In this document: positions 1-3,785 of the stretch, piece by piece | Numbering within the stretch: position 1 is the first letter of the stretch | How the letters are laid out: every line of letters begins with the position of its first letter | NCBI RefSeq assembly: GCF_041821045.1 | Contig: NZ_JBGUAW010000011.1 | Coordinates: 1 to 64,000 of the forward strand | Source of the DNA: Thiohalorhabdus sp. Cl-TMA | GTDB taxonomy: Bacteria > Pseudomonadota > Gammaproteobacteria > Thiohalorhabdales > Thiohalorhabdaceae | Direction of reading: 5' to 3' | DNA length: 64,000 bases | Notes under the pieces: generated by a model | What the model saw: the letters and a program-made list of their open reading frames with translations, nothing else | Database searches by the model: none | Told to the model about the DNA's origin: nothing | Made by a program: the position numbers and the translations under genes

Positions 1-1742
1 AGCAGGGCTTCCAGCAGCTGTTGCCGGCCCTCGCCGGCCTTCCCTTCCACCAGTTGCCGCCGGGCCTGGCGCGCCAGCGCCCGCACCCGGGCCGCGTCGG
101 GCTGCAGGACCACGCGCAGCTCGGAGTCGTCGAGCAGGACGGACAGCCAGGTGGTCTCCAGGTCGAGGACCACCAGACGCCCCTCGTCGGCACCCAGGTC
201 CCGCTGGAGCTCGGCCACGGTGGGGGTCAGCGCCCCTTGCTCGGAGCCCGGGACCTGCTCCAGGAGCTGGCGCCCCCGGTAGCTCTGGATGGCGGCGAGC
301 AGGGCGCCGCCCTGCCCCCCCTGCGCCCGCTGCAGCCGGGCCCGCACCCGGATGCGGCCCAGGTAGGCGGGCTTGGCGTAGCCCTGGAAGAAGTACAGGC
401 GCTGTTCCGGCTCCAGCGACTCCCGGACCCGCTCCGACCAGGCGACCACCTCCTCGTAGCCCGCCAGGGCCTGCTCATATTCGCCCGCCAGCTCCGCTTC
501 CCGGGCCTTCGCCAGCCTGAAGCGGTGGCGGGCGCGGATCAGGCCGTCGGCGGCGGCCCGGCGCTCCCCTGCCTCCTGGTAATGGACGTTCAGGCGCGCC
601 AGGCGCTTTTTCGCCCGCTCGTAGCTCGTCCGCCGGTCCTCGGCCCGCCCCAGGTGCAGGGCCGCCTTCCACTGGGCCAGGGCCGCGCGGAACAGGGGCC
701 AGTGCGGAACCGGCTGCTTCTCTCTCTTGGACCAGGACCTGGCTGGGCTAAATTTGGTCCAGCCCGTGCGACCACCCTCGTATTCTTCGTCCAGGAGTTC
801 GTCAACTCCGTAAAGGAAACCACTGGTCCCCAGACTCCTAACGTGATCACCCTGAAACAATGAACCGGGGAGAGGATTTTGGAAGTCAAGCTTGTCTTTT
901 ACGCTCAGGACAGCCTCCCGGGCTTCCGCGATTTGGGTGCCAATCCGGCTGTAAAGTTCAGCATCGCCGGCTTTTGCTGTCGCGCGCTGTAATGGGGGCA
1001 GCATTTTCAAGGCCGGGACCCAGCAGCATTTGTAGGGCAGGCGGAACTGCCGATCCTGTTGCACCGTCTTCAGGACGAAGCGGGCATCCCGCAGGACCAT
1101 TTGGCGGGAGCGCCCCTGAGCCGACCCATAGGCGTAGCGCAGCGCCAGTAGATAGGCGGTCCAGGCACGGTCGTCAGGGCTCAGCCCCCCTTCTGGCGAA
1201 GCCGGGACGCGGTAGCGTGCATGAATCCGGTCCAGGGCGGCGAGTGCCCGGGGACCGTTGCCCACCCGGGCCGCCTCCGCGGCGAGGCGGAGCTGGTAGT
1301 CTCGCCAATACCCGAGAGAACCGGAGCGCATGGCATCCTGGGCCCCATCCTCCAGGACCTTGAACAGGCGCCCGGTCTGCCCAATGCCACCAAAGTAGGC
1401 GGACGCCGCGACATACAACGGCTGCGGTGGGAAGACCCTTGAGAGGGACTGATCCTCCTGGGCACGCCAGCGTTCCCTACTAGCCTGATAATGCGCCCAC
1501 ACCTTGTCCGCCAGGCGCGGATGTTCGGGAGGGAGCGAGGAATCCCGGATCAGGAGCTGGAGCTCGAAGGCGTCCTCCGCCACCTCACCCCCAGCCGCGC
1601 CAGAATAAAGCTCTGCCCTTTGGCGCACCTCTTTTTTGTCCCGCTTTTTCTCCCATTTTCCCCACTGTCCGTCCCCGGCGGCGCATCCGCTCAATAGGAC
1701 GGCCAGAAGCGCACCCCCTCCGAACATCCATTTGCCCAACAT
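1..1742 (-). CDS. CHAT-domain helical-repeat lipoprotein (partial, C-terminus outside window)
   Basis: The frame stays open from an ATG at 1742 to the window edge (580 codons seen, no stop). An AAGGAG ribosome site lies 8 bases before the ATG. The N-terminus MLGKWMFGGGALLAVLLSGC is a lipoprotein signal with lipobox LSGC (Cys20), followed by a Lys/Glu-rich linker, so the protein should be a membrane-anchored periplasmic lipoprotein. About 450 residues of Arg/Ala-rich helices resembling TPR-like repeats follow. From about residue 490 the sequence (VAELQRDLGADEGRLVVLDL, then ELRVVLQPDAARVRALARQA) matches the start of a CHAT caspase-like protease domain. The catalytic His and Cys would lie beyond the edge, so activity cannot be judged. 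Role unknown; CHAT proteins are peptidases, several of them in regulated proteolysis or defence. Confidence 0.75.
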   Translation of the reverse strand, partial: MLGKWMFGGGALLAVLLSGCAAGDGQWGKWEKKRDKKEVRQRAELYSGAAGGEVAEDAFELQLLIRDSSLPPEHPRLADKVWAHYQASRERWRAQEDQSLSRVFPPQPLYVAASAYFGGIGQTGRLFKVLEDGAQDAMRSGSLGYWRDYQLRLAAEAARVGNGPRALAALDRIHARYRVPASPEGGLSPDDRAWTAYLLALRYAYGSAQGRSRQMVLRDARFVLKTVQQDRQFRLPYKCCWVPALKMLPPLQRATAKAGDAELYSRIGTQIAEAREAVLSVKDKLDFQNPLPGSLFQGDHVRSLGTSGFLYGVDELLDEEYEGGRTGWTKFSPARSWSKREKQPVPHWPLFRAALAQWKAALHLGRAEDRRTSYERAKKRLARLNVHYQEAGERRAAADGLIRARHRFRLAKAREAELAGEYEQALAGYEEVVAWSERVRESLEPEQRLYFFQGYAKPAYLGRIRVRARLQRAQGGQGGALLAAIQSYRGRQLLEQVPGSEQGALTPTVAELQRDLGADEGRLVVLDLETTWLSVLLDDSELRVVLQPDAARVRALARQARRQLVEGKAGEGRQQLLEAL

Positions 1743-1812
1743 GAAACTGCTCCTTTATGCCGGAAATGGGCACCGGCCCTTCTTTAACCTTAGGGAGCCT
1801 GAACCCCCCGCC

Positions 1813-2637
1813 CTATAACACCCCATTTACTGTCACCTTCAAATCCTTCTTATTATTTTTGTAGTCAAACGTAACACCATAAAAATCGGTTTTTCTTGGG
1901 TCGGAAGGATCAGTACTCCAATTATATCCACCATGAATATAACTATAACCACTTTCTTTCAATTTTTTGTTATGCATTTCCTCTGCAATTCGCAACCGTT
2001 CTTTCATCTTATTCTGCCATTTATTATTACCTTCACTACCTCTTATCGATTCCTTAATAGTATTAATCCCTTTTTTCGCCTGTTCTATATGATCTTTTCT
2101 TGTTTTCCACTTCCAGCCTCTAGATTCTGGCATGACCGAACTCTCCAGCTTTCTATATAAATCACGAGCTAGACCCCGGGCCGCTTGTGGGCTACCGGTA
2201 TTTATGGTGAAGGACAAACGCACCCTTTTTTGGAAGCCTCCAGCCCTCACTCCCCTTATCAACATATCCGATCCCACTCCCATACCGGTTCCTTTAAAAA
2301 TCCCATCTATATTAGCCTGGTGGTAATCTGCGCGCCTATATGATTCCACTGCTTTAATAACATGATCCCGGCTTGTTCCTGGCCTCGCCTTCCATTTCTC
2401 CTCTATCTGAGCCAAGTGCTGCCTTTTTTCCTCTGCTGGCAAAGGATCTCCCCGAAGGGTTTCAAAATCCTTCTCGCTAGCTTTTACCACCTCATAGACG
2501 GCCTCCGTTACCGGGTCCAACCCCGGAGACGCCGGGAACTGGTAAGGCTTTCCCCCGGAAAGGTGTGCACCCGGAGAGGCACACCCGGAAAAAACCATTA
2601 CCCCGGATACCACCAAACAACCAGCCAAATTTCGCAT
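1813..2637 (-). CDS. AT-rich orphan lipoprotein
   Basis: The protein starts MRNLAGCLVVSGVMVFSGC (274 aa from the second possible ATG; the first, at 2652, adds five residues). The lipobox FSGC marks it as a lipoprotein. The body is charged and largely helical, with Lys/Glu-rich stretches around residues 175-225 and Tyr/Asn-rich C-terminal strands. I recognise no family. The 3' half is strikingly AT-rich for this genome, which suggests recent acquisition. It lies 70 bases upstream of the CHAT lipoprotein in the same direction, so the two may be co-transcribed; both are predicted lipoproteins, which hints at a shared envelope function. Function unknown. Confidence 0.7.
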   Translation of the reverse strand: MRNLAGCLVVSGVMVFSGCASPGAHLSGGKPYQFPASPGLDPVTEAVYEVVKASEKDFETLRGDPLPAEEKRQHLAQIEEKWKARPGTSRDHVIKAVESYRRADYHQANIDGIFKGTGMGVGSDMLIRGVRAGGFQKRVRLSFTINTGSPQAARGLARDLYRKLESSVMPESRGWKWKTRKDHIEQAKKGINTIKESIRGSEGNNKWQNKMKERLRIAEEMHNKKLKESGYSYIHGGYNWSTDPSDPRKTDFYGVTFDYKNNKKDLKVTVNGVL

Positions 2638-3113: not shown

Positions 3114-3693
3114 CTAAGGTTCGATCTTGGTGCTCAAACGTTCCAGGAAGCGGCCCAGCCATTCGGAATGCCCGGGCCAGACGGGCGAGGTAACCAGGTT
3201 GCCGTCCACCACAGCCTTTTCGGGGGTAATGTCCACCCACTCCCCGCGGGCGGTCTGTATGTCCGGACCGATGTCGGGATATGCGGTCAGCTTCCGTCCC
3301 TGCAGAATCCCGGCGGTTACCAGAATCTGGATACCATGGCATATGGCGGCCACGGGGTTGTCGGCCTCGAAGAAATGGCGGGTAAGATCCAACACCTCGC
3401 CATTGAGGCGCAGGTATTCAGTGGCCCGACCACCGGAGACCACCAAGGCATCGTGGTCCTCCCCTCGCACCTCTTTGAAGGCGCGTTCAAGGCGAAATTG
3501 TGACCGGACTTCTCGCTGTGGGTCTGGCCGCCTTCGAAATCGTGCACTGCGACGCAAACGGCCTCACCGAATTTCTTTCCCGGGCAGACGGCATGGATCG
3601 TATGGCCGACCATGCTCAAGGCCTGGAAGGGCACCATGATCTCGTAGTTCTCACCGTAGTCACCCCCAGCTGCAGGTTCCGCTTGGCCACCAT
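3114..3693 (-). pseudogene. DJ-1/PfpI-family protein gene with two frameshifts
   Basis: Read from an ATG at 3693 (strong site GGAGGG before it), the gene begins [10 protein letters not shown]. It must change frame near the C run at 3663-3667 to continue [20 protein letters not shown] ... GHNFALNA. It must change frame again near 3481 to continue [19 protein letters not shown] ... [14 protein letters not shown], ending at 3114. The AICHG nucleophile-elbow motif is the hallmark of the PfpI/DJ-1 fold (protease, glyoxalase or deglycase activities). The span is 580 bases; restoring one base at each site gives 582, that is 193 residues and a stop, the usual family length. Either a recent pseudogene or two single-base sequence errors. 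Confidence 0.85.
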
Positions 3694-3785
3694 GATCACC
3701 CTCCTGGCTTGCCAAAAGGTCTTCCTTCCCTGCTAGCCAGAGGGGAAGGGGATGGCCAATTGAATGTTCCACCCACCCGGAGCGG

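Follow-up and report, generated by a model that had tools for sequence, protein, structure and literature searches.

P0001 is probably the N-terminal portion of an exported lipoprotein of the TPR-CHAT type, truncated at a contig edge of Thiohalorhabdus sp. Cl-TMA

P0001, the first gene of the window (the whole 64,000-nucleotide stretch analysed here), probably belongs to the known exported TPR-CHAT lipoproteins and is truncated by the assembly. With a probability of roughly 0.8, it represents the N-terminal two thirds of a lipoprotein of this type, and its neighbor P0002 is a species-specific lipoprotein on the same insertion. The pair formed by the two genes is neither conserved nor an unusual system. 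CHAT is a caspase-like protease domain.

The first base of the window is the first base of a 154,730-bp contig, C11, and the genome is in 45 contigs. P0001 keeps 580 aa from an ATG start and has no stop codon up to the contig edge (Table 1). The two adjacent minus-strand lipoproteins named in the preliminary description are present, carry the lipoboxes LSGC (P0001) and FSGC (P0002) and are separated by 70 bp. Signal peptides and lipoboxes were judged by eye and pattern. Both were recognized in P0001, as in the CHAT members of G010, G245, G207 and G414, and the LSGC of P0001 aligns with the LAGC of its relative in G414. The third-position GC is 0.80 in P0001 versus 0.43 in P0002 and 0.86 in mreB. 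Within P0001 it changes from 0.70 in the first 345 codons to 0.94 in the remainder.

Table 1. Features of the P0001-P0002 locus (window coordinates)
Feature	Position	Strand	Basis and remarks
P0001, helical-repeat lipoprotein running into the start of a putative CHAT domain	1..1742 (frame 3-1742)	minus	open frame; 3' end cut by contig edge
P0001 lipobox LSGC, residues 17-20, mature Cys20	1683..1694	minus	read from sequence
P0001 ribosome-binding site AAAGGAG	1750..1756	minus	7 nt upstream of start; read from sequence
P0001 residues 417-526, homologous to the stretch that directly precedes CHAT in the 876-aa lipoprotein of G414	165..494	minus	homology search
P0001 residues 509-580: predicted helix, three strands, two helices; PF12770 would start about at the contig edge	3..218	minus	predicted secondary structure and profile scores
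P0002, AT-rich orphan lipoprotein, 274 aa, upstream of P0001	1813..2637	minus	open frame; no family, no convincing relatives
P0002 lipobox FSGC, residues 16-19, Cys19	2581..2592	minus	read from sequence

The strongest evidence on the nature of P0001 is its homology to a complete CHAT lipoprotein. When 398 genomes of the phylum were searched with P0001, one clear match was obtained, in G414 (E 6.7e-8, 36% over the 110 residues 417-526). The G414 relative is a complete lipoprotein (LLAGC) with PF12770 at 541-869 (E 3.6e-62) and with the His and Cys motifs FATHG at 701 and LSACNTG at 748, and the stretch matching P0001 directly precedes its full CHAT domain. The pair scored 33.4 bits, far above the top of 500 shuffles (3.7 bits). 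The blastp alignment covered 156 columns at 31%, with a second short match at the lipobox. The second match of the 398-genome search, G547, stood among aminotransferase-like and other unrelated frames and was discarded as chance. Direct searches of viral contigs and plasmids with P0001 gave nothing, and among 48 genomes of the class of G414 that were searched for a CHAT lipoprotein, G414 alone was found.

A profile of the region preceding CHAT (130 residues, from 23 proteins of the class) pointed in the same direction. The last 110 residues of P0001 scored 12.1 bits against this pre-CHAT profile, compared with 7.4 bits for the best of 1000 shuffles and 7.9 bits for the best of 910 tiles of window frames, and hhalign placed the P0001 tail in the same register, slightly above its 40 shuffles. 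The profile score is sensitive to trimming: when the tail was lengthened to 170 residues and one sequence was added to the profile, 2 of 1000 shuffles outscored P0001. P0001 has no match to the Pfam CHAT model (PF12770). This absence is expected, because PF12770 begins in the homologues almost exactly at the position of the contig edge. No family was above the cut-off for the truncated protein in Pfam, NCBIfam or PADLOC.

The predicted structure is consistent with this assignment. Ahead of the tail, P0001 is predicted with low confidence to be all-helical. Its three predicted tail strands span residues 523-546, and the predicted tail layout fits, again with low confidence, the arrangement that precedes a CHAT catalytic core. 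The low-confidence model of P0001 resembles TPR solenoids (best Z 13.6, rmsd 3.9, 169 aligned), values that any helical repeat can give, and the Pfam TPR models have no match in P0001. On the profile, the tail structure and, above all, the G414 homology, P0001 is accepted as the N-terminal portion of a CHAT lipoprotein, whose catalytic His and Cys would lie beyond the contig end. The preliminary description of a lipoprotein in which helical repeats lead into a CHAT domain is supported; a relative that has the same layout carries an intact His/Cys CHAT core. P0001 shares the lipobox, the long helical region and the position of the pre-CHAT linker with the exported TPR-CHAT lipoproteins (PF12770) of Gammaproteobacteria and their relatives. 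It differs from them in its low identity and lack of a close relative, and it is known here without a catalytic domain.

The missing catalytic half was searched for in the rest of the assembly. Apart from the 21 short contigs C25-C45, which read as N throughout, the genome was searched with PF12770 without a match, and a custom CHAT profile gave nothing over all readable contig edges. The 15-mers of window bases 1-300 are absent from every other readable edge.

The preliminary description regarded an envelope CHAT protein as unusual, and this view is not upheld. When the N-termini of 20 CHAT genes of the class were read by eye, about 18 had a signal-peptide-like start and 4 had a lipobox; the sample was drawn from strong CHAT matches, and its proportions are indicative only. 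G414 provides a fifth CHAT lipoprotein. Judged from sequence, CHAT proteins with export signals or lipoboxes are common in the class, and their envelope placement is ordinary. A literature search found no paper describing exported CHAT lipoproteins.

The neighbors of 21 exported CHAT genes were scanned (40 neighbors), and their domains included six nucleotide cyclases, five CHASE2, three DUF928, three caspases and two TPS. Caspases adjoin the CHAT gene at 3 of the 21 loci, in separate lineages, and two of these three cases involve CHAT lipoproteins. In G010 the caspase lies on the same strand just downstream of the CHAT lipoprotein; in G414 it is divergent from the CHAT lipoprotein and carries DUF4384; in G225 it lies beside the CHAT gene and has a weak DUF4384 match. 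The exported CHAT genes directly adjoining caspase genes are found at L133 (5133-9692), L038 (3575-7570) and L053 (4090-8353). At L039-L057 a second neighborhood recurs, in which several exported CHAT genes have CHASE2-nucleotide cyclase, DUF928 or two-partner secretion genes close by. DUF4384 is known to accompany cyanobacterial orthocaspases as an accessory domain (PMC8283722). Caspases of this orthocaspase type (PF00656 and PF14326), which adjoin exported CHAT genes in the three loci, form a protein family separate from P0001.

A caspase of this kind is also present at a contig edge of the genome studied here, and its adjacency to P0001 is putative. PF00656 has two matches in this genome: C5 contains a full domain in its interior, and C9 begins with a C-terminal part. 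The C9 part (L066, plus strand, 3-392) covers PF00656 positions 113-224 with a DTCQSG motif. Behind it, also on the plus strand, comes an exported protein that matches DUF4384 weakly (688-2118), and this region is a candidate continuation of the P0001 locus. P0001 could then be half of an envelope two-protease module, in which the CHAT lipoprotein is followed across the C11-C9 gap by an exported caspase (Peptidase_C14) and the DUF4384 protein. In such a module the true partner would be the caspase instead of P0002, and the CHAT lipoprotein, on sensing a signal, would cleave the caspase or activate it in the periplasm. We put this reading at slightly less than even odds. The recurrence at three loci in separate lineages argues for it, and the strand orientations agree with an order of P0002, CHAT, gap, caspase, DUF4384, with the caspase following the CHAT gene as in G010. 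Furthermore, the missing N-terminal half of the C9 caspase is on no other readable contig.

The contig edges themselves give circumstantial support. Many or most edges share exactly 77 bases with other edges, and shared edge k-mers are typical of repeat-broken assemblies. Eight edges share no 77-mer; C9L and C11L are among them and have the highest GC of the eight (0.73 and 0.78), which is what a coverage gap in GC-rich DNA would lead one to expect. Against the two-protease reading, the adjacency of C9 and C11 is itself circumstantial. Joining the two contigs through the gene order of the sister species failed, since both species lack these regions. Most exported CHAT loci have other neighbors (CHASE2-cyclase, DUF928, TPS), and the right side of the P0001-P0002 pair has no caspase. 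Taken together, the exported caspase is a better partner candidate for P0001 than P0002 is. The broader proposal, that exported CHAT lipoproteins and exported DUF4384 caspases form a recurring proteobacterial envelope module of which one copy is split here by the C11/C9 assembly gap, is more doubtful and is put forward only tentatively.

P0002 was described earlier as AT-rich and belonging to no known family, and this description stands: the gene and its surroundings are AT-rich, with local GC down to 42%, and no family was found in Pfam, NCBIfam or PADLOC. No convincing relative was found in 94 related genomes, 369 genomes of the class, viral contigs or plasmids, nor in the contigs of about 85,000 species, a search seeded by exact peptides that covers close relatives only. 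The single weak match, in G069, was dropped because the matching frame holds four stops. Matches of the P0002 fold to EagT6/DcrB/PsbP-like structures (best Z 7.9, rmsd 3.7, 98 aligned; model mean pLDDT 47) were at background level and were rejected. Both P0001 and P0002 are absent from two sister species, which carry other genes downstream of gatB, and the two genes were not found together in any other genome searched. Because P0002 has no convincing relatives and the sister species carry other genes at this place, the pair is specific to one species among the genomes compared.

The preliminary description had taken P0002 for a dedicated partner of P0001 and had named conservation of the gene pair as a test. 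With P0002 lacking convincing relatives in every collection searched and both genes absent from the sister species, the idea fails this test. It could be rescued if P0002 were a substrate or anchor whose rapid evolution hides it from recognition elsewhere, comparable to Csx30, the substrate of the TPR-CHAT protease Csx29. The Csx29/TPR-CHAT protein of type III-E CRISPR (Craspase) is reported to have helical repeats that control a CHAT protease, and a neighboring gene encodes the substrate (PMC9729208, PMC10028731, PMC11106740). In architecture the P0001 locus is alike, with predicted helical repeats, a probable CHAT domain and a neighboring gene. However, Csx29 works with Cas7-11 and is not exported, while P0001 carries an export signal and a lipobox, which speaks against Csx29 identity. 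The shared strand, the 70-bp spacing, the lipoprotein nature of both products and their joint absence from the sister species would suit a dedicated partnership, but no P0002-like protein lies beside the exported CHAT genes examined, and the very different codon make-up of P0002 and P0001 suggests separate origins. A dedicated partnership is therefore unlikely. Rather than a conserved partner, P0002 is more probably a passenger, or else a local ligand or substrate; most simply, it is a passenger or local ligand.

About 500 bp away from the pair, a DJ-1/PfpI gene (window 3114-3772, minus strand) is split between two frames near 3480. In the sister species G002 the gene is intact in one 192-aa frame; the split copy is either a pseudogene or a sequencing error. 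A reading in which the insertion is degrading and P0001 is decaying with it, or has become a non-catalytic CHAT relative, is still more improbable than a dedicated partnership: the broken DJ-1/PfpI gene and the strong composition gradient along P0001 favor decay, but P0001 stays open over 580 codons and has both a clean ribosome site and a lipobox, and the third-position GC of its second half looks like that of a maintained gene of a GC-rich genome.

Under the preferred reading, in which P0001 is a truncated exported TPR-CHAT-type lipoprotein, the lipid anchor would hold the helical-repeat array in the cell envelope, where the array may sense a ligand or partner at the membrane, as its architecture suggests. 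The array would control a C-terminal caspase-like CHAT cysteine protease in the periplasm, and this presumed catalytic part would have been lost at the contig end. P0002 would have been carried on the same insertion downstream of gatB.

To our knowledge, the bacterial CHAT proteases with worked-out mechanisms are cytoplasmic, in CRISPR and other defence. The P0001-P0002 pair itself is not remarkable, and the exported CHAT-caspase neighborhood is the part worth following. If the C11-C9 join is true, a CHAT protease and a caspase would act together, and with a caspase-type relay in the periplasm such signalling would be placed somewhere new, outside the cytoplasm.
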